A stretch of 64,000 nucleotides of DNA from Clostridium niameyense. Its GTDB lineage: Bacteria; Bacillota; Clostridia; Clostridiales; Clostridiaceae. Shown in pieces: positions 2,455-47,296 of this stretch. Numbering within the stretch: the first letter of the stretch is position 1; every line of letters begins with the position of its first letter. The notes beneath the pieces are model-generated. The model searched no databases and had not been told where the DNA came from. It saw only the letters and a list, made by a program, of their open reading frames with translations. The stretch lies in contig NZ_LN849007.1 of the NCBI RefSeq assembly GCF_001243045.1, positions 276,989 through 340,988 of the forward strand, given 5' to 3'. The position numbers and the translations under genes are program-made.

Positions 2455-3213
2455 ATGTTTTATATTGGTATAGATATAGGTTCTACAGCTAGTAAAGTAT
2501 GTGTGTTTGAAGATAATATATTAAAGGAAATCTTTGTAGCACCTACCGGTTGGAGTAGTGTAAAAACAGCACAAGATATAGCAAAAAAATTGGGTAACTT
2601 AGGAATAAGTAAAGATGAAAGTAAAATAGTTGCAACTGGGTATGGTAGAGTTTCAGTACCTTATGCTGATAAAACCATAACAGAAATAACCTGCCACGGA
2701 AAAGGTGCATATTATTTATTTCACGAGGATTGTACTGTAATAGATATAGGTGGACAAGATACTAAAGTTATTACAGTAGAAGAGGGTAATATAACTAATT
2801 TTAGTATGAATGATAAATGTGCTGCAGGTACTGGTAGATTTTTAGAACTTATGGCAAACACACTGGGGCTTAATATTGATGATATGTGTGCTTTAGCTCA
2901 AAAGGGTGGAGGAGTTAATATAACCTCTATGTGCACAGTATTTGCAGAGTCTGAAGTTATAAGTTTAATAGGTAGTGGAAAAAATAGAGAGGATATAGCT
3001 TTTGGAGTATTGGAATCTATAACAACAAAAGTAAAATCTTTATGTCAAAAACATTCAGAGGGGAAAAATTATTTTTTAACTGGTGGATTGAGTGATAATA
3101 AATACATAGTAGAAAAGTTATCTGAAAAACTACAATCACAAGTAAAATCCAATGACCTTGGAAGATATGCAGGTGCAATAGGTGCTGCTCTAATGGCAAA
3201 AAATTTAAAATAA
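2455..3213 (+). CDS. ATP-dependent activator (acyl-CoA dehydratase activase / DCCP reductase)
   Basis: This is an ASKHA-fold activator of the BadF/BcrA/HgdC family, 252 residues. The phosphate-1 motif GIDIGSTASK is at residues 4-13, the phosphate-2 motif is VIDIGGQDTK, and the two cysteines that hold the homodimer-bridging 4Fe-4S cluster are in DKCAAGTGRF and SMCTVFAESE. The adenosine motif and C-terminal helix GAIGAALMAKNL close the fold. It hydrolyses ATP to drive a low-potential electron into its partner, here most likely the double-cubane protein. The start ATG follows gaggtgggag. Length is normal for a stand-alone activator. Confidence 0.9.
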   Translation: MFYIGIDIGSTASKVCVFEDNILKEIFVAPTGWSSVKTAQDIAKKLGNLGISKDESKIVATGYGRVSVPYADKTITEITCHGKGAYYLFHEDCTVIDIGGQDTKVITVEEGNITNFSMNDKCAAGTGRFLELMANTLGLNIDDMCALAQKGGGVNITSMCTVFAESEVISLIGSGKNREDIAFGVLESITTKVKSLCQKHSEGKNYFLTGGLSDNKYIVEKLSEKLQSQVKSNDLGRYAGAIGAALMAKNLK

Positions 3214-36415: not shown

Positions 36416-37390
36416 TTATAATGAGGATTTATTATAAGAATAATTTTCGGTCCATTTTCCACATCTATCACCGAAAGAACCAATTATATCATTACCATCT
36501 AGAATCCTAACAATTTCACATTCATTACCACATCCACTACATTCAAAACTCTTTGATATAAATTTTGAATTTGATATGTTAAAACCTCTAAAATTAGTTT
36601 TACATTTAGTTCTTTCAATTTTATTTTTAGCCATAAGGGCTGCACCTATAGCACCCATAATTTTATGATTTTTAGGGACAATTATATCACAATTAAGGGC
36701 TTCTTCAAAGGAAGATTTAATTCCCTTATTAGCAGCAACACCACCTTGAAAAAATATTTTAGGTAGAATTTCTTTTCCTTTAGCAACGTTATTTAAATAA
36801 TTTCTCACTAAAGCATCACAAAGACCTTTAATTATATTTGATTGACTATAACCTAATTGCTGCTTATGAATCATATCAGATTCAGCGAATACAGCACATC
36901 TTCCAGCAATTCTTACCTGAGTATCAGCTTTGAGGGCTAAATTTCCAAAGTTTTCTATAGGTATACTTAATCTTTCCGCCTGTCTATCTATAAAAGAGCC
37001 AGTGCCAGCGGCACATACTGTATTCATAGCAAAGTCTGTTACTATACCGTTTCTTAATATGATTATTTTAGAATCTTGTCCGCCTATTTCTAATATGGTT
37101 TTTACATTTTTGTCCAAATTAAGAGAAGCTACTGCATGAGCGGTTATTTCATTTTTTACTATGTCTGCTCCAACTAAAAAGGAACCTATTACTCTACCAC
37201 TTCCAGTAGTTCCTACTGCTTTTATTTGTTTATCGTCATATTTTTCACCAAGAATTCTAAAACCTTCTTGAATAGTTTTTATAGGATCTCCTTTAGTTCT
37301 TAAATATAAGGAATCAATAACATTCATTTGACTATCTGTAATTACAATGTCTGTACTTACAGAACCAACATCAACTCCCATATAATACAT
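36416..37390 (-). CDS. ASKHA activator subunit of a split activator/dehydratase-like system (COG1924)
   Basis: This 324-residue ATPase has GVDVGSVSTDIVI (phosphate-1), ILEIGGQDSKIIIL (phosphate-2), and both cluster cysteines in TVCAAGTGSF and GRCAVFAESDM. Unlike the activator at 2455, it has a C-terminal extension rich in cysteine, ECSGCGNECEI and GDRCGKW, probably a second metal site. The ATG at 37390 has aaggaga upstream. It overlaps the preceding gene by 20 bases. It probably drives electrons into the two upstream-encoded HgdB-like subunits. The substrate is unknown. Confidence 0.88.
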   Translation of the reverse strand: MYYMGVDVGSVSTDIVITDSQMNVIDSLYLRTKGDPIKTIQEGFRILGEKYDDKQIKAVGTTGSGRVIGSFLVGADIVKNEITAHAVASLNLDKNVKTILEIGGQDSKIIILRNGIVTDFAMNTVCAAGTGSFIDRQAERLSIPIENFGNLALKADTQVRIAGRCAVFAESDMIHKQQLGYSQSNIIKGLCDALVRNYLNNVAKGKEILPKIFFQGGVAANKGIKSSFEEALNCDIIVPKNHKIMGAIGAALMAKNKIERTKCKTNFRGFNISNSKFISKSFECSGCGNECEIVRILDGNDIIGSFGDRCGKWTENYSYNKSSL

Positions 37391-38468
37391 TATCTCGTCT
37401 CCTTTCAAGTAAATCAATAAAAGCTTCTATCCTAGTTATATACCCAGCTTCACCAGTCATTTCATCTACGACTAGACTCATTATTGGTATATCTTCATTG
37501 TTAGATATAGTAGGAAGTATGGATTTTGAAACTATCTCTGGCATACAACCTAGTGGGAAAATTTGAATAATGCCATCAAAACCTTCTTTTTTTGCAAGCA
37601 TAGCCTCGCCAATACATTCCCTACCATGTCCTCCTATATAAAGAGGTAAATATTTTCTTGAAGCTTTACGTATATTTAAAGAGTTAAGTTTTAAGGGAGA
37701 TAAAGCAGCATTTTTTACCCACCAACTAGGATAAAGTCCTTTTTTTGTACTTACACCTAAATTCATAAGTTTATCTTCTATATACAAATTAGAGAAAGGC
37801 TCCATTATTGTATAAATTTCTCCTATTATGGCTATTTTTATAGGATTCTTATTTTTATCTATAGGAACATTATTTAGTTTATTTTTGTAATTCCTTAATA
37901 AATTAAGCATTTCCGATGGTGAGTTACATTTAAAAGCTTCAGTTTTACAACTATAGAGGATATCTTTACATTCTCCTTTATTTATTTCATATCCAGCCTT
38001 AAATCTAGCTACTTTTTCTATATCATCTATAAAATTTATTACCTTTAAACCATATATTAAAGATTTAAATTTTTCTTTTGAAGTTTTGGTACTTTCATTA
38101 GAAATTATAGATATTCTATTTAGAAATTCTTTAGTTCCTATAGATTTAGGATAATCAATAACTATAAAATTTAGATTATATCCTAATCTTTTTAATATTT
38201 TCATTTGTAGTTCACAGTATTCACCAAATCTACAGGGACCACAACTACCAGGAATAACTATAGTGTCAGCACCTTTTTTTATAGCTCCAATATAGTTTCC
38301 TATCATAATTTTAAAAGGTAGACAAATTTCTTCTGGTGAATAGAGAGAACCTATCTCTAAAGCTTTTTTGTTACTTAATTTAGGCATTACATAATCTATA
38401 CCTAAAGCATCAAAAGTAACTTTAGCGGCATAACAACTATTACCAAAGTGTGGAAAAGTAATCTTCAA
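37371..38468 (-). CDS. HgdB-like subunit (COG3581 type) of the split system
   Basis: The 365-residue protein begins KITFPHFGNSCYAAK and contains SPEEICLPFKIMIGNYIG, a GSCGPCRFGEYC cysteine cluster, a further YSCKTEAFKC pair and PLGCMPE near the C-terminus, and ends MTGEAGYITRIEAFIDLLE. The C-terminal signature is shared with the double-cubane protein (SGQIKTRVEAF) and the next subunit, so all are HgdB-fold relatives. Stand-alone and fused versions of this domain are known only by COG number. It starts four bases from the end of the 38472 gene. A role in Fe-S-dependent radical or reductive chemistry is inferred. Confidence 0.82.
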   Translation of the reverse strand: MKITFPHFGNSCYAAKVTFDALGIDYVMPKLSNKKALEIGSLYSPEEICLPFKIMIGNYIGAIKKGADTIVIPGSCGPCRFGEYCELQMKILKRLGYNLNFIVIDYPKSIGTKEFLNRISIISNESTKTSKEKFKSLIYGLKVINFIDDIEKVARFKAGYEINKGECKDILYSCKTEAFKCNSPSEMLNLLRNYKNKLNNVPIDKNKNPIKIAIIGEIYTIMEPFSNLYIEDKLMNLGVSTKKGLYPSWWVKNAALSPLKLNSLNIRKASRKYLPLYIGGHGRECIGEAMLAKKEGFDGIIQIFPLGCMPEIVSKSILPTISNNEDIPIMSLVVDEMTGEAGYITRIEAFIDLLERRRDNVLYGS

Positions 38469-38471
38469 GTT

Positions 38472-39365
38472 CTAACTACATCTCCTTTCTAGCATATCTG
38501 CAAAAGCTTCTAGCCTAGTATAAAATCCAGCCTCTCCAGTTTGCTCATCAATTTTTAATACTAAAATAGGGAAGTCTTTTAATTCATCTTTTATGAGCTC
38601 TATAACAATAGAATCTATACCACAAGCGAAGGAAGAAATATAAATTATACCTTGTACTTTATTAGTTTTTGCCAAATAAGTAGCTGAGCCATACGAATTT
38701 TTTGCAAATGTCCAAAAAGGTTTTTTAAATAATTTATCAATTTGTTTATTTATATCTTCTTCTTGTACATATTCTTCTGTTATAACGCCTACACCTAATT
38801 TATCTAATTTTTTAATTATATCTAAGTTTGTATATTTATCATAAATATTATAAGGATGGCCTAATAAAGCTATATTTATATTTTTATTTAATTTTTTTAT
38901 ACCAGTAAATGTATTTTGCTGCTTTTTTATTGCTATATTTAACGCTTTATTTATTTTATAAAGGTTTTTAGTTACTTTTAATCCAGATTTTATAGCCCAT
39001 TTTTTTAGTTCTTTTATAGAAGTAGCATATATAGGATAGGTTATACATTTTGGCATATCAGGTATGCTGTACTTAATCATTTCTGGTAAACCACAAAATT
39101 TGGGACATATATATTTATTTTTTTCCAATTGCATTATACGTGGAATCAACAAAATATCACATTTATCTTTAATATCCATAACATGACCATGAAATATTTT
39201 AACAGGTAAACAGGCATCATCTACAGAAAGTTTTACACCTTTGTTTAAAATATCTTTATTGGTATCTTCAGATGTTATGATTTCACAACCCAATTCCTCG
39301 AAAAAACTTTTTAAAAAAACATTATATTTATAATATAAAAGCCCTTTTGGTATTCCAACTATCAT
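38472..39365 (-). CDS. DUF2229/COG3580 subunit of the split system
   Basis: The 297-residue protein opens IVGIPKGLLYYKYNVF and has the DUF2229 marks VDDACLPVKIFHGHV and KNKYICPKFCGLPE, plus ISSFACGIDS. It ends EQTGEAGFYTRLEAFADMLE, nearly the same tail as its neighbour, so the pair look like diverged halves of a heterodimer comparable to HgdA/HgdB. First gene of the minus-strand operon (38472-36416). Upstream DNA to 40103 is about 740 bases with no gene I can support. Confidence 0.82.
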   Translation of the reverse strand: MIVGIPKGLLYYKYNVFLKSFFEELGCEIITSEDTNKDILNKGVKLSVDDACLPVKIFHGHVMDIKDKCDILLIPRIMQLEKNKYICPKFCGLPEMIKYSIPDMPKCITYPIYATSIKELKKWAIKSGLKVTKNLYKINKALNIAIKKQQNTFTGIKKLNKNINIALLGHPYNIYDKYTNLDIIKKLDKLGVGVITEEYVQEEDINKQIDKLFKKPFWTFAKNSYGSATYLAKTNKVQGIIYISSFACGIDSIVIELIKDELKDFPILVLKIDEQTGEAGFYTRLEAFADMLERRCS

Positions 39366-40103
39366 AGAACATTCTCCTTAAAAAATATATTCATTAGTAA
39401 TTATTTACCAATAAATAAAAACTATTCACTAAATGATTTTATTTTACAGATAATATTGTTTTTATAAAAAATGAATTTAGTATGAAATTATATGGAGAAC
39501 ATGAAACTTGTATGAGGAGCAATATATTACAAAAAATCTTAAATAAAGTGATAGTAAATCTAAAATTATAGTGAAAGAAGTATCAAAGAAAAATGGATAT
39601 TTAGGAGAAGAGCAATAAAAATTATATATCATAAGGGTCATAAAAATAAAAAGATGATTTTAAATCTTCAATAAAAATATAGTTTAATGTTAATAAAATC
39701 GGATATTTAAAGTATTTATATAGAATAATTACTATAAATACTTATTATTTTCACCATAATGAAATAAAGTTTAATAATTATCAAAAAAGTGCTAGACTTT
39801 AATATACATATATACTATAATGACAATAGAGATATTAATAATATTTTAACAATGATAAGGTATTCTAATTATATGAATATTAAAGATTTTAGTCTTTTAT
39901 GTTGATATTTGTAGATTTGCTTTTGAGGAAAATTTATCAGTAGCATAAAATTCATAATAATGAAATATAATTAGATATAACTTAACACAAGAATAACCCC
40001 TTATATCTGAATATTTAAAATTTCAATTATTTAATTAATTTTCTGTTATATATTTACGTGATATAATGGAAAAGTAAAAATATGTAGAATGAGGGGATTA
40101 CTT
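39366..40103. other. Long gene-free AT-rich interval
   Basis: I read all frames and see only short open stretches without ribosome sites. It must hold the divergent promoters of the split activator operon and the regulator gene; a tataat at 40062-40067 is a likely -10 for the latter, but its -35 is poor. Confidence 0.6.
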
Positions 40104-40664
40104 ATGATAAATGATATAGGTAAGAAGATAAAAAAATTAAGAACCAACAAAAAATTAACATTAAAAGAATTAAGTGAGCAAACAGATTTATCTATAGGAT
40201 TTTTATCTCAGCTAGAAAGAGGATTAACAACAGTAGCTATAGACTCTTTAAGCAAAATTGCTAAACAATTAGGTGTAGATTTAACATATTTCTTTGAGGC
40301 TCCTAAAAAGAGTAAAAAAATTTTATTAAGAAGCTATGAAAAGGAAATATTTCAAGTAGAAAATAATAGATTTATTAAGTATAACTTAAGTAATAATCTA
40401 GAAGATAAAAGTTTTCTACCAAGATTAATAGAAATATTACCTTCACGTAATAATGAAAATCTTATTTCATATCAGCATGAAGGTGAAGAATTTGTTTATG
40501 TTTTAGAGGGCATACTTACTTTAATATTGGGAGAAGATGAAAAAGAACTATATCCTGGCGATAGTGCTCATTATGATTCAAGTGTAAAACATAATTGGGC
40601 TAATTATACAAGTAAACCAGTTAGATTATTAACAGTTAATACACCTAATATTTTCAAGGAGTAG
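40104..40664 (+). CDS. XRE-family regulator with C-terminal cupin, probable regulator of the hydroxyproline genes
   Basis: The 186-residue protein has an N-terminal HTH (KKIKKLRTNKKLTLKELSEQ through SIGFLSQLERGL) and a C-terminal cupin with HEGEEFVYVLEGIL, YPGDSAHYDSS and KHNWANY. Cupin regulators of this build bind small metabolites. It starts at 40104, eight bases after gagggg. It sits 35 bases ahead of the HypD activase on the same strand, so a hydroxyproline- or proline-responsive role is likely, by position. Confidence 0.85.
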   Translation: MINDIGKKIKKLRTNKKLTLKELSEQTDLSIGFLSQLERGLTTVAIDSLSKIAKQLGVDLTYFFEAPKKSKKILLRSYEKEIFQVENNRFIKYNLSNNLEDKSFLPRLIEILPSRNNENLISYQHEGEEFVYVLEGILTLILGEDEKELYPGDSAHYDSSVKHNWANYTSKPVRLLTVNTPNIFKE

Positions 40665-40698
40665 TAAAGTTAAGAAACCTAAATAGGGGGATGATTTT

Positions 40699-41601
40699 AT
40701 GAGTAAAGGGACTGTTATAAATATACAAAAATATTCTGTACATGATGGTCCGGGGATACGTACAACAGTATTTTTTAAAGGATGTCCTTTAAGTTGTTGG
40801 TGGTGTCATAATCCAGAGAGTCAAAGGAAAGAACACGAAATTATGTTTTTTAAAGAAAGATGTACAGGATGTGGGGTTTGTGTTAAAAGGTGTCCACAAA
40901 ATGCCATAGAAATAAAAGATAACTATCCAGTGGTAAACAAGGATAAGTGTAACTTATGTGGAAAATGTACGGATTTTTGTCCTAGCAATGCTAGACAATA
41001 TGTAGGAAAAGATATGACAGAAAATGAAATTTTTAAAGAAATAATGAAAGACGAAATATTTTATGAAGAATCTGGTGGAGGGGTAACCTTCTCTGGAGGA
41101 GAACCAATGCTTCAAGCAGAGCTTATAAATGAAGTGTTAAACCAATGCAGGATAAAAGGAGTACATACAACGATAGATACTAGTGGATATGTATCTTGGG
41201 ATAAATTTGACAAAATAAGAGATAAAGTAGATCTATTCTTATATGATTTAAAGCTTATGGATAATGAAAGACATAAAAAATATATAGGAGTAGATAATAA
41301 AATAATATTAGAAAATCTTAAAAAGCTTTCAGATAATGGCCATAATATATATATTCGTATGCCAATAATTGTAGGGGTAAACGATGATGATGAAAATATA
41401 GATAAAGCTATTGAATTTATATCTAAGTTAAATATAATTCATGTAAACTTATTACCATATCATAAGATGGGAATGGACAAGTATAAAAGAATTAATATGA
41501 AGTATAAACTTTCAGGTGATGAAAAACCATCTGATGAAAAAATGAATGAGATAGCTAATAAATTTAAAAAAGCTGCTATAAAAGTAAAAATAGGGGGTTA
41601 A
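40699..41601 (+). CDS. HypD-activating radical SAM enzyme
   Basis: The 300-residue glycyl-radical activase has the radical-SAM motif FFKGCPLSCWWCHNPES near residue 26-42, an inserted ferredoxin-like domain with two Cys4 sets (CTGCGVCVKRCP and CNLCGKCTDFCP), and the SAM-binding FSGGEPML. It installs the glycyl radical on the partner enzyme. It ends seven bases before hypD, its obvious substrate. The ribosome site is aggggg. Confidence 0.94.
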   Translation: MSKGTVINIQKYSVHDGPGIRTTVFFKGCPLSCWWCHNPESQRKEHEIMFFKERCTGCGVCVKRCPQNAIEIKDNYPVVNKDKCNLCGKCTDFCPSNARQYVGKDMTENEIFKEIMKDEIFYEESGGGVTFSGGEPMLQAELINEVLNQCRIKGVHTTIDTSGYVSWDKFDKIRDKVDLFLYDLKLMDNERHKKYIGVDNKIILENLKKLSDNGHNIYIRMPIIVGVNDDDENIDKAIEFISKLNIIHVNLLPYHKMGMDKYKRINMKYKLSGDEKPSDEKMNEIANKFKKAAIKVKIGG

Positions 41602-41607
41602 GTTATT

Positions 41608-43971
41608 ATGATGACTGAAAGAGTAAAAAAATTAAGAGAGCAAAGTTTGAATGCTGTACCACGTATTTCAATGGAAAGAACTCAGATTGTTACTGATGTT
41701 TACAAAAAATATGAAGGAACAGTATCAATTCCAGTATTAAGAGCCTTAGTTTTAAAGGAGTTGCTTGAAAGAAAAACTCTTTGCATTAATGATGGAGAAC
41801 TTATAGTAGGAGAGAGAGGGGAAGCTCCAGCAGCTACACCAACTTATCCAGAATTATGTTGTCATACTATTGAAGATTTTGATATTATGGACAAACGTGA
41901 TAAAATATCTTTTAAAACTACTGATGGAGATAAAAAAATACAAGAAGAATTAATTATTCCTTTCTGGGAAAGAAGATCCATGAGACATAAAATTTTAAGC
42001 AAAATGACACCAGAATGGAAAACATGTTACGAATTAGGTATATTCACTGAATTTATGGAACAAAGAGGCCCTGGACATACTGCAGGTGGAGATAAATACT
42101 ATAAAAAAGGATTCTTAGATATAAAAAAAGATATAGAGGAAGCTATAGCTAAATTAGATTATTTAAATGATGATGAAGCATTAGATAAAAAAGAACAGTT
42201 AGATGCTATGAATATAGCTTGTGACGCTATAATAATTTATGGAAAGCGTTATTCAGAATATGCAGCTAAATTAGCAAAGGAAGAAAAAGATCCGCAAAGA
42301 AAAAAAGAATTAATGGAAATATCAGAAGTTTGCGCTTGGGTACCAGCTCATGCACCAAGAACATTTAGAGAAGCATTACAAATGTATTGGTTTGTTCACT
42401 TATGTGTAATTTCTGAATTAAATCCTTGGGATGCATTTAATCCAGGAAGACTAGATCAACATTTATATCCTTTCTATAAAAAGGAAACAGAATCAGGTAC
42501 TTTAGATAGAGAACAAGCAAGAGAATTATTACAATGCTTCTGGGTTAAATTTAATAATCAACCGGCTCCACCAAAAGTTGGTATAACACTAAAAGAAAGT
42601 GGAACTTATACTGATTTTGCAAATATAAATAGTGGTGGAATGAAAGCTGATGGCTCAGATGGAGTTAATGATGTAAGCTATTTAGTACTTGAAGTAATAG
42701 ATGAAATGAGATTACTACAACCAAGTTCTAACGTACAAATAAGTAAAAAGACACCACAAAAGTTCTTAAAGAAAGCTTGTGAAATTATAAGAAAAGGTTG
42801 GGGTCAACCATCAATATTTAATGCAGATTCTGTAGTTCAAGAATTAGTTAGGGCAGGAAAATCTATAGAAGATGCTAGATGCGGAGGAACTAGTGGTTGT
42901 GTTGAAGCTGGTGCCTTTGGTAAAGAAGCTTATATATTAACAGGATATATGAATTTACCAAAGATATTAGAAGTTACATTACTAAATGGTGTAGACTCTC
43001 AAACTGGTAAACAAATAGGATTAAAAACAGGAGATATAACTACATTAAAAACTTATGATGATATATTTGAAGCATTTAAAAAACAACTTAAATATTTTAT
43101 TGATATAAAAGTAAATGGTAACAGAGTTATAGAAAGAATGTACGCAACATTAATGCCAGTTCCATTTCTATCAGTTATTACAGATGATTGTGTTACTAAA
43201 GGAAAAGATTATAATGCAGGTGGAGCTAGATATAATACAAGCTATATACAAGGTGTTGGTATAGGAACAATTACAGATAGTTTATCTGCAATTAAATATC
43301 AAGTATTTGATAAAAAGAATATAACAATGGAAGAATTAATGGAGGCCTTAAAGAATAACTTTGAAGGACACGAAGATATTCTTAATTTAGTTAAAAATAA
43401 GACTCCTAAGTATGGTAATGATGATGACTATGCTGATGAAATAATGCAACAGGTATTTAATGCTTACTATAATGAAGTAAATGGAAGACCAAACGGTAGA
43501 GGTGGTTCTTATAGAATAGATATGCTTCCAACTACATGCCATGTTTATTTTGGATCAGTTATAAATGCTACTCCAGATGGAAGAAAGGCTAATGTACCAG
43601 TATCAGAAGGTATTTCTCCATCAAAGGGAGGAGATATAAATGGACCAACAGCAGTTGTAAAATCAGCAGCTAAAATGGATCATTTAAGAACAGGTGGTAC
43701 TTTATTAAATCAAAAATTTACTCCATCTGTAGTTCAAGGAGAAGCTGGATTAGATGGAATGACAAACTTAGTAAGAGCTTATTTTAGAATGGATGGACAT
43801 CATATTCAATTTAATGTTGTAAGCAAAGATTTATTATTAAAAGCACAACAAAATCCAGATGAATATAAAGATCTTATAGTTCGTGTTGCTGGATATAGTG
43901 ATTACTTTAATAATTTAGATAGAGTATTACAAAATGAAATTATAGAAAGAACAGAACAAACTGGTTTCTAA
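41608..43971 (+). CDS. hypD: trans-4-hydroxy-L-proline dehydratase (glycyl radical enzyme)
   Basis: The 787-residue enzyme removes water from trans-4-hydroxyproline to give pyrroline-5-carboxylate. GGTSGCVEAG carries the thiyl cysteine (Cys431) and the base glutamate, RVAGYSDYFNN the radical Gly762, and the N-terminal EFMEQRGPGHT is shared with the characterised C. difficile enzyme, which I recall as matching closely along its length. The Cys-Val-Glu-Ala-Gly local sequence (rather than Glu-Thr-Gly) is a mild variation. With activase before and proC after, it forms the full hydroxyproline-to-proline route that feeds Stickland fermentation. Confidence 0.95.
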   Translation: MMTERVKKLREQSLNAVPRISMERTQIVTDVYKKYEGTVSIPVLRALVLKELLERKTLCINDGELIVGERGEAPAATPTYPELCCHTIEDFDIMDKRDKISFKTTDGDKKIQEELIIPFWERRSMRHKILSKMTPEWKTCYELGIFTEFMEQRGPGHTAGGDKYYKKGFLDIKKDIEEAIAKLDYLNDDEALDKKEQLDAMNIACDAIIIYGKRYSEYAAKLAKEEKDPQRKKELMEISEVCAWVPAHAPRTFREALQMYWFVHLCVISELNPWDAFNPGRLDQHLYPFYKKETESGTLDREQARELLQCFWVKFNNQPAPPKVGITLKESGTYTDFANINSGGMKADGSDGVNDVSYLVLEVIDEMRLLQPSSNVQISKKTPQKFLKKACEIIRKGWGQPSIFNADSVVQELVRAGKSIEDARCGGTSGCVEAGAFGKEAYILTGYMNLPKILEVTLLNGVDSQTGKQIGLKTGDITTLKTYDDIFEAFKKQLKYFIDIKVNGNRVIERMYATLMPVPFLSVITDDCVTKGKDYNAGGARYNTSYIQGVGIGTITDSLSAIKYQVFDKKNITMEELMEALKNNFEGHEDILNLVKNKTPKYGNDDDYADEIMQQVFNAYYNEVNGRPNGRGGSYRIDMLPTTCHVYFGSVINATPDGRKANVPVSEGISPSKGGDINGPTAVVKSAAKMDHLRTGGTLLNQKFTPSVVQGEAGLDGMTNLVRAYFRMDGHHIQFNVVSKDLLLKAQQNPDEYKDLIVRVAGYSDYFNNLDRVLQNEIIERTEQTGF

Positions 43972-44015
43972 AAAATAAAATTAGTATTTATATAAAAAAA
44001 GTGTGCAATAATTGT

Positions 44016-44057
44016 CTTAGGTAGTAAAAGTGTAGTAATGCATATTTACTACCTAAG
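44016..44057 (+). repeat. 13-bp perfect hairpin between hypD and proC
   Basis: cttaggtagtaaa (44016-44028) and its exact complement (44045-44057) enclose a 16-base loop. There is no T tract afterwards, so it may protect or process the mRNA rather than terminate it. Confidence 0.65.
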
Positions 44058-44086
44058 AAATTAATTATATTTGGGAGGTTATATTA

Positions 44087-44893
44087 ATGAATAAAGTAAT
44101 AGGTTTTATTGGTGCAGGAAACATGGGCCAAGCTATGGTTGGAGGAATAGTTAATGCAAAATTAGTTACTCCAGAGAACATAATTATAGGTGATTTAAGT
44201 GAAAAAAATCTAGAAAAGGCTAAGGAAAAATTTGGAGTAAAAATTACAACAGATAATAATGAAGTAGCTAAAATAGCAGATATATTAGTCTTATCTGTTA
44301 AACCTAATTTATATCCTATAGTTATAAAGGGAATAAAAGACCAAGTAAAAGATGACGTAATAATAGTTACTATAGCAGCTGGAAAGGCTTTAGAAGATAC
44401 AGAGGCTACTTTTGGAAAGAGAATAAAGATAGTTAGAGTTATGCCAAATACTCCAGCATTAGTAGGTGAAGGTATGGCAGCTATTTGTCCTAATGATTTA
44501 GTTTCTAAAGAAGAAGCAGAAGAAGTTATTAGTATGTTTGAAAGTTTTGGAAAGGCTGAAATAGTTCCAGAAAAATTAATGGATGCTGTAACATCAGTAA
44601 GTGGATCATCACCTGCTTATGTATATATGTTTATAGAAGCTATGGCTGATGCAGCTGTATTAGATGGAATGCCAAGAGATAAAGCATATAAATTTGCAGC
44701 TCAAGCAGTATTAGGTTCAGCAAAGATGGTTTTAGAAACTGGAATGCATCCAGGAGCTTTAAAAGATATGGTTTGTTCACCAGCAGGAACAACTATAGAA
44801 GCTGTGGCAACTCTTGAAGAAGAAGGATTTAGAAGTGCTGTTATTAAAGCTATGAGAAGTTGTACAAGAAAATCTCAAGAAATGTCTAAATAG
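44087..44893 (+). CDS. proC: Pyrroline-5-carboxylate reductase
   Basis: The 268-residue enzyme reduces P5C to proline with NAD(P)H. The N-terminal Rossmann motif is IGFIGAGNMGQAM; VMPNTPALVGEGMAA, SVSGSSPAYVYMFIEAMAD and the C-terminal VCSPAGTTIEA are family signatures. Placed directly after hypD, it removes the product of the dehydratase. The ribosome site is ggaggt. Confidence 0.96.
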   Translation: MNKVIGFIGAGNMGQAMVGGIVNAKLVTPENIIIGDLSEKNLEKAKEKFGVKITTDNNEVAKIADILVLSVKPNLYPIVIKGIKDQVKDDVIIVTIAAGKALEDTEATFGKRIKIVRVMPNTPALVGEGMAAICPNDLVSKEEAEEVISMFESFGKAEIVPEKLMDAVTSVSGSSPAYVYMFIEAMADAAVLDGMPRDKAYKFAAQAVLGSAKMVLETGMHPGALKDMVCSPAGTTIEAVATLEEEGFRSAVIKAMRSCTRKSQEMSK

Positions 44894-46289: not shown

Positions 46290-46583
46290 TTATATGCCTT
46301 TTATATTATAAATAGGAAATGTAAAAAGTATTCCTTTGCCTGGATGATTAAGTTTACCTGATCTTACTACAGTATTTATTATAGTTTCACAAATTCCATC
46401 TTCACATATTATTAATATAATTTCTTTAGAAGATTCTATATGAAAGTCAAAGTATTTTTTAATTTCTTCTTCTCCAGTACCTCTACCATAAAATATTGTA
46501 GCACCTTTGGCTCCTACACTTTTAGCATCATTAACTATTTTAGAGGCCTTTCCTCTTTCTACAATAGTAACTATGCATATCAA
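46290..46583 (-). CDS. PII-like protein
   Basis: The 97-residue protein resembles the PII fold with early IVERGKASKIVNDAKSVGAK, the glycine-rich GATIFYGRGTGEEE in place of a GlnB-type T-loop, and C-terminal SGKLNHPGKGILFTFPI. Classical PII uridylylation tyrosine is not obvious. It begins 15 bases after the DUF1538 gene on the same strand, a pairing seen often, so it most likely controls that membrane protein in response to a nucleotide. Confidence 0.82.
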   Translation of the reverse strand: MICIVTIVERGKASKIVNDAKSVGAKGATIFYGRGTGEEEIKKYFDFHIESSKEIILIICEDGICETIINTVVRSGKLNHPGKGILFTFPIYNIKGI

Positions 46584-46597
46584 GGGTAAAACCTCCT

Positions 46598-47296
46598 TTA
46601 TTTTGTGATTATACCTAATAATAATACAAATATAATAGGACCAATAGAAGTAAGTCCAACTATACCAAAAGCATTTAAAAGGGGATCGGAATTTTCAATA
46701 ACTTTGGATAAACCTAGAGCTATGGTGAGATTTAAAGGTATATTTACAGGTCCTGTTGTAGAACTTGCACAATCTATAGCTATTCCGATTATTTCTTCAG
46801 GAGCTAAAAATAATAATATTGTTGAAATTATAAAAAGGGGAATAACAATTTTAGAAGTTTTAATATTAAATAATATTTTACATATGCCTATGGATAATCC
46901 TGTACCAAATCCACAAGCTACTGTATACATAAGAAAATTTTTAGAAATTGATCCTATAGAAATTTCATCTACTTCCATTGCTAAAGCAGTTAAGGCTGGC
47001 TCTACAAGAGTTGTACAAAATCCAATTCCGAATACTAGTAATATAATAAACCATTTATTTTTTAGTAATATTAAATTTCTACCAACGGATTCTCCAAGTG
47101 GTAATAGAAAAAGATTTGTTCCTTCTATAAACAAGAATAAACCTAAAGTACTTAGTATAACCCCTAATGTAAAAGTTTTTATATTTTTCATTGGTTTTTT
47201 AAATATGAATAGTTGAATGAAGAGCATGAGTGTAGTTATAGGTAAGATATTTTTAAAGGTATTCCATAATCCTTTAAAAATATAAGAAAGTTTCAT
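46598..47296 (-). CDS. DUF1538 membrane protein
   Basis: The 232-residue protein has six or seven membrane helices. The family marks are FLFIEGTNLFLLPLGE, TTLVEPALTALAMEVDEI and DCASSTTGPVNIPLNLTIALG. Many genomes carry two such genes beside a PII gene; only one is here. Transport function is suspected, but the substrate is unknown. It opens with an ATG after ggagggattca. A long reading frame on the opposite strand is only a shadow of it. Confidence 0.82.
   Translation of the reverse strand: MKLSYIFKGLWNTFKNILPITTLMLFIQLFIFKKPMKNIKTFTLGVILSTLGLFLFIEGTNLFLLPLGESVGRNLILLKNKWFIILLVFGIGFCTTLVEPALTALAMEVDEISIGSISKNFLMYTVACGFGTGLSIGICKILFNIKTSKIVIPLFIISTILLFLAPEEIIGIAIDCASSTTGPVNIPLNLTIALGLSKVIENSDPLLNAFGIVGLTSIGPIIFVLLLGIITK

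Follow-up and report, generated by a model that had tools for sequence, protein, structure and literature searches.

A split, three-gene relative of the PlsA/Ger enzymes in Clostridium niameyense and its probable adoption by sporulation in anaerobic Bacillota

Plasmalogen synthase, a member of the 2-hydroxyacyl-CoA dehydratase family, is encoded either by two genes, as with CPE1194-1195 in C. perfringens, or by a single plsA gene, as in Enterococcus, Lactococcus and Bifidobacterium (PMC12838417). The plsA/plsR genes represent an anaerobic pathway (PMC9702350, PMC8788747), and Ger is a PlsA-like ester-to-ether reductase (PMC11150832, PMC13274423), the enzymes of Thermotoga and Desulfatibacillum being described as making alkyl ethers (PMC11150832). 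A 2026 paper also reports additional PlsA homologues without an activation domain in the Bacillota genomes screened, and its authors call their role unclear (PMC13274423). The present analysis concerns a three-gene operon of Clostridium niameyense that is related to these enzymes. The operon occupies positions 36416..39365 of a 64,000-nucleotide stretch of contig NZ_LN849007.1 (assembly GCF_001243045.1, positions 276,989 to 340,988 of the forward strand), and this whole stretch is referred to as the window.

The most probable reading, from comparison of the operon with its relatives, is that it is related in split form to the PlsA/Ger branch of the superfamily of ATP-driven [4Fe-4S] reductases, has been adopted by sporulation of anaerobic Bacillota and is made in the forespore. 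Two of its genes, A and B, encode HGD-like subunits and the third, C, encodes an ASKHA activase; the genes are transcribed A-B-C from the minus strand. The features of the operon are as follows.

38472..39365, minus strand: A, DUF2229/HGD-D subunit of 297 amino acids (aa), with invariant Cys52, Cys87 and Cys248
37371..38468, minus strand: B, second HGD-like subunit of 365 aa, with a TTG start and invariant Cys49, Cys79 and Cys308
36416..37390, minus strand: C, ASKHA activase (BcrAD_BadFG) of 324 aa counted from ATG, with conserved Cys126 and Cys165
36461..36541, minus strand: residues 284-310 of C, its tail with four cysteines (CxxCxxxC-x18-C), kept across the split family as well as PlsA/Ger-type fusions
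38481..38549, minus strand: tail motif of A, DEQTGEAGFYTRLEAFADMLERR
37398..37466, minus strand: tail motif of B, DEMTGEAGYITRIEAFIDLLERR
39399..39427, minus strand: forespore-type promoter-like site, GAATA-N13-GGTAAATAA, 62 nucleotides (nt) before A

The three open reading frames that a first-pass annotation of the window had placed here are all present at those coordinates. The product of C matches the Pfam family BcrAD_BadFG (5.6e-43) and aligns along the activators of two dehydratases, those of 2-hydroxyglutaryl-CoA and 2-hydroxyisocaproyl-CoA; it also matches the methanogenesis marker 15 model at 6.6e-35, which is below that model's cut-off. Judged from the alignment, C probably starts with the ATG at 37390 rather than with the TTG at 37417. 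A matches DUF2229 (9e-51) together with a C-terminal HGD-D domain (1e-7), and B has a DUF2229 match over 56 residues (2e-10) and an HGD-D match under the cut-off (4e-5; all Pfam). The two subunits are full-length paralogues, as indicated by BLASTP (2e-18, 28% identity) and by profile-profile comparison (99.9%, E 1e-36, 291 columns), which bears out the earlier proposal that they go back to the duplication of a single HGD-type ancestor. The A-B heterodimer proposed along with it is, by analogy with homologues, very probable, and C would serve it.

Searching proteins with B gave 68 related loci in Clostridia. Five operon-bearing genomes were chosen from these, and in all five DUF2229 is also part of a longer protein, namely a fusion of 1432-1459 aa in four genomes and a pair of frames of 972 and 465 aa in the fifth. 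These giants of about 1430 aa have the layout ASKHA-ASKHA+Cys tail-A-B, which we take to be that of PlsA/PlsR; they were assigned by layout, and the tree described below includes no characterised PlsA or Ger sequence. It is with the second activase domain of the giants, Cys tail included, that the window's C aligns, and A and then B follow in order, the same succession of activase with Cys tail, A and B as in PlsA/PlsR to judge by giants of like layout. All three A cysteines recur in the giants, as do the first and second of B, whose third falls outside the alignment. In contrast to the operon, with one activase and separate genes transcribed A-B-C, the giants combine two activase domains in one chain, and Ger, a PlsA-like enzyme by description, likewise differs in having two activation domains (PMC13274423). 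The Bacillota PlsA homologues reported without an activation domain are probably A/B-type genes; in the present operons that domain is the separate gene C (PMC13274423).

In a concatenated tree of 89 units, 69 split units group with one fusion, L141, in a single clade that is separate from the 19 giants (support 1.0, stem 1.62), and the split operons are not placed inside the giants. Support for the split clade is 0.85 when L141 is left out. This fusion (L141:1765-5811) is a frame of 1348 aa with two activase domains and an A part carrying TRxEAF, and it groups with the split family; frames of 1290-1347 aa that resemble it occur in G164, G181, G192 and G226.

The cysteine pattern of the operon is strongly conserved. 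Cys52, Cys87 and Cys248 of A are invariant among 24 sequences and are kept in 66/66, 66/66 and 65/65 sequences of a wider set, and Cys49, Cys79 and Cys308 of B are invariant among 26 sequences and in 69/69 each of the wider set. Three invariant cysteines per subunit fit one three-Cys [4Fe-4S] cluster in each, for which these residues would be the ligands. In C, Cys126 and Cys165 are kept in 66/66 split sequences and 20/20 giants. The four tail cysteines of C are present in 66/66 split activases and, among aligned giants with L141 included, in 19/20, 19/19, 19/19 and 19/19. The Cys-rich C-terminus noticed in the first-pass annotation is thus present, although it is not the extra that it was taken for, being conserved in split activases and giants.

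The tails of A and B share the pattern D-E-x-TGEAG-x-x-TR-x-EAF. The near-identity of these tails, remarked upon earlier, is real: TRxEA[FY] occurs in 106/107 split A and 107/111 split B sequences (after removal of four duplicate loci), and this conservation argues against chance. The split B sequences without it are L094 and the broken or cut genes of L040, L060 and L064. The reported recurrence in the double-cubane protein (DCCP) of the window also holds, as TRVEAF is found in the product of 831-2105. The motif TGEAG..TRxEAF closes the HGD-D domain, and DCCP (6eno, 7yyl) and HadC align with it. The C-terminus of A matches HadC (4e-4) and DCCP (8e-7), profile matches of A and B to PDB chains are confined to the C-terminal ~65 residues, and searches with single A and B sequences matched no PDB chain. 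In contrast to the split family, none of 19 PlsA/Ger-type giants has the TRxEAF tail, the separate B genes of three two-part giants included. Presence of the tail in DCCP, HadC and the split family and its absence from the giants indicate that it was inherited from the superfamily and that it separates the split family from the giants. HgdA/HgdB as the best model for A and B, as first suggested, is not supported: it is the fusions of PlsA/PlsR and Ger type that are collinear with the operon, though the tail itself is HGD/DCCP-like. DCCP resembles A and B in its HGD-D end and tail and differs in extent, as the window's DCCP matches 6eno nearly over its full length and neither A nor B gave such a full-length DCCP match in the PDB searches. 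That protein (831-2105) matches 6eno along residues 8-424 (9e-155), and an ASKHA activase gene adjoins it at 2455-3213.

The order A-B-C is recognisable in 67 of the 68 related loci, the exception being L064, which is cut by the contig end. Broken or cut genes occur in L015, L023, L040, L060, L064, L067 and L068, and all of these except L064 were scored as A-B-C in order. In L027, A and B are joined in one frame of 721 aa. Besides A, B and C, no neighbour is conserved in more than eight of the 68 window-type loci, except for one ABC-transporter-like cluster found in 16. Other arrangements were seen in passing: a 747-aa frame surrounds B in G218, two tandem A-B pairs are followed by one C in L086:8588-14031, L121 has an additional B copy, and in G300 and G383 B contains stops or is spread over two frames, a sign that it may be decaying in some Clostridiaceae. 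Second split operons fetched from 20 genomes form, with others, a paralogue clade of 24 units (support 1.0).

Genome context connects the split genes with sporulation, a link that came to light in genomes further removed from the window than the 68 loci. SpoVAD or SpoVAF-type genes accompany the split genes in 15 of 20 chosen regions, and lysA is present in nine. In the spoVA-linked layout, A-B lies directly behind the spoVA genes, and no C was found in two such loci (L087, L088). In examples, NCBIfam models confirmed SpoVAC, SpoVAD, SpoVAE, SpoVAEA, LysA and a SigF-type sigma factor as neighbours; the SpoVAF-type gene matched a germination-protein model only, below cut-off. In 149 genomes sampled from the phylum of C. 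magnum (G001), SpoVAD shares the strand of B and lies within 6 kb upstream of it in at least 59, counting B places among the 150 matches listed. This linkage has largely disappeared from window-type loci, 6/68 of which have a SpoVAD or SpoVAF-type gene in the fetched region.

Presence of split B follows SpoVAD, the sole sporulation marker in these counts, in all three genome samples, when shared ancestry is ignored. In the phylum sample, split B occurs in 110/131 genomes with SpoVAD versus 3/18 without it (Fisher test, 2e-8; weak B matches in G012, G030, G127 and G128 were left out of the two-by-two table). The corresponding figures are 64/69 versus 5/51 for 120 genomes of the order of Tissierella (Fisher test, 1e-21) and 71/109 versus 0/7 for 116 genomes of the family of G001 (about 0.001, calculated by hand), where two of the 71 B copies are broken. 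Among typed B places in the order of Tissierella, one per genome, 0/63 lie within 20 kb of SpoVAD, although many assemblies are in pieces and linkage could be missed. The giants behave differently from split B, their distribution not following SpoVAD: frames above 900 aa occur in 31/131 genomes of the phylum sample with SpoVAD versus 13/18 without, the opposite trend, and in the order of Tissierella giants (E <=1e-60) occur in 64/69 versus 45/51. In B. subtilis, the aerobic model species whose genome served as control, SpoVAD is present and DUF2229 finds no match.

A promoter motif is also enriched before A, as judged by its spacer lengths and by comparison with shuffled sequence, with other genes and with paralogues. 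Within the 200 nt that precede 65 window-type A genes, that of the window among them, GHATR-N-GGNAA peaks at spacers of 15 (22 loci) and 14 (10 loci), compared with shuffle means near 0.5 for spacers 13-17 and 0-2 loci at each other spacer from 8 to 24. The pattern with a spacer of 14 or 15 precedes 30/65 A genes versus 12/903 other genes of the same loci, these loci being mutually related; it precedes 1/16 spoVA-linked A genes and 0/22 paralogues outside a spore context. Textbook-style patterns for the sigma factors sigma-E and sigma-K were found in 1/65 (shuffle mean 0.8) and 0/65 (0.7), respectively. Promoters of sigma-F and sigma-G are alike, those of sigma-F retaining a G before the -10 element (PMC3789822). 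The first-pass annotation had left the function open and had held that genome context tying the genes to a known pathway elsewhere would speak against it. The function is now narrowed, since context, co-occurrence and promoter in relatives point to sporulation, and this link in part provides such a context.

By analogy with homologues, C would be an ASKHA ATPase that forms a homodimer, has a [4Fe-4S] cluster bridging the two chains and is reduced by ferredoxin. Upon ATP hydrolysis, C would hand low-potential electrons, one at a time, to the A-B heterodimer, in which either subunit would carry one [4Fe-4S] cluster of the three-Cys kind, the substrate being reduced between the two clusters. Because the closest proteins of known function reduce phospholipid acyl esters to vinyl or alkyl ethers, the leading candidates for the substrate are lipid acyl esters of the forespore or of the spore inner membrane, which may be converted to vinyl or alkyl ethers as by PlsA and Ger; this assignment is tentative. 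A fuller proposal, which we regard as rather doubtful, is that an unrecognised reductase of the sporulation set, placed in several lineages between spoVA and lysA, turns ester lipids of the forespore membrane into ethers and so gives a spore-specific, hydrolysis-resistant inner membrane. No treatment of these genes in sporulation was found in the literature, as judged mostly from listings; the words 'dehydratase' and 'hydroxyglutaryl' are absent from the main texts of the sporulation papers searched by term, where a locus tag could still hide the genes. The activase of the additional Bacillota PlsA homologues may be the adjoining gene, and the set as a whole would belong to sporulation. If this is true, many anaerobic spore formers would carry an oxygen-sensitive, ATP-driven enzyme of the forespore, with a bearing on whether spore membrane lipids are remodelled by reductive ether formation and on why B. 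subtilis lacks the step.

Several results weigh against adoption of the operon by sporulation. There is no B in 38/109 genomes with SpoVAD in the family of G001 and in 21/131 of the phylum sample, so the set is not required for all sporulation, and no spoVA gene occurs among the scanned window proteins. The enriched promoter pattern was found from over-represented words and by eye and was then tested on the same data, and the window's own site fails the strict pattern with its 13-nt spacer, 1-2 nt shorter than in relatives. The textbook-style patterns show little or no enrichment, that of sigma-F, based on the generally known consensus, occurring in 4/65 (shuffle mean 1.6, max 5) and that of sigma-G in 2/65 (1.3). 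Furthermore, the co-occurrence statistics ignore the shared ancestry of genomes and loci, and the related paralogue clade adjoins genes outside sporulation: some of its operons have NuoG/formate-dehydrogenase-like genes, selA/selB or Fur-type regulators close by (L102-L105, L098-L099, L111, L113, L116-L119), and may have another job or perform the same chemistry in growing cells. These last two points favour the view that the linkage to spore genes is incidental and that the operon encodes an ordinary vegetative plasmalogen or ether-lipid enzyme within spore-forming lineages. That explanation is unlikely, as the giants of the same samples do not follow SpoVAD, split B and SpoVAD co-occur in Tissierella's order without detected linkage, and the forespore-type promoter motif is found in window-type loci and in none of the 22 paralogues.

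The nature of the substrate divides the remaining explanations. With only 22-26% identity of A and B to the giants, a lipid substrate is a guess, and the different tail also leaves room for others. A spore-specific reductase could act instead on a substrate other than a lipid ester, such as a CoA ester or else a metallo-protein needing reductive activation in the forespore. The evidence for a role in spores applies to it identically, and the distance from the PlsA/Ger-type giants (the stem of 1.62), their different tail and the match of C to methanogenesis marker 15 agree with it; characterised PlsA and Ger, however, act on lipid esters (PMC12838417, PMC11150832), and no substrate or partner gene was identified for such an enzyme. 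We consider it a real possibility. The subunits of HgdABC/HadBCI hold three cysteines each, as A and B do, and those systems also combine an activase with two paralogous subunits and have a TRxEAF-type C-terminal region. The operon might accordingly be read as a dehydratase of this type for a fermentation substrate, in which C would inject one electron and A-B would eliminate water via a ketyl radical, and the alignment of C to the two dehydratase activators and the HadC and DCCP matches of A favour this. The operon differs, however, in the DUF2229 of A and the four-Cys tail of C, its PDB matches are limited as described above, and its distribution follows SpoVAD. As had been noted at first pass, no CoA-transferase, acyl-CoA dehydrogenase, electron-transfer flavoprotein or hydroxyacid dehydrogenase family is present among 59 window proteins scanned with Pfam (small, doubtful reading frames lay outside the scan), and no obvious fermentation pathway is visible among them; nor do relatives have a conserved neighbour of this kind. 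For want of partner genes the fermentation dehydratase ranks low, and we consider it very unlikely.

Two further clusters of the window were noticed in addition. A trans-4-hydroxy-L-proline dehydratase and its activase, preceded by a cupin-HTH regulator and followed by pyrroline-5-carboxylate reductase, occupy 40089-44893 and are divergent from the operon. A link between this neighbouring cluster and the operon was considered and rejected, since a similar protein (28% identity) occurs in 1/68 related loci and the reductase or the cupin regulator in 0/68. Further along, at 46290-47296, a gene for a DUF1538 protein (46598-47296) adjoins one for a P-II-like protein (46290-46583).

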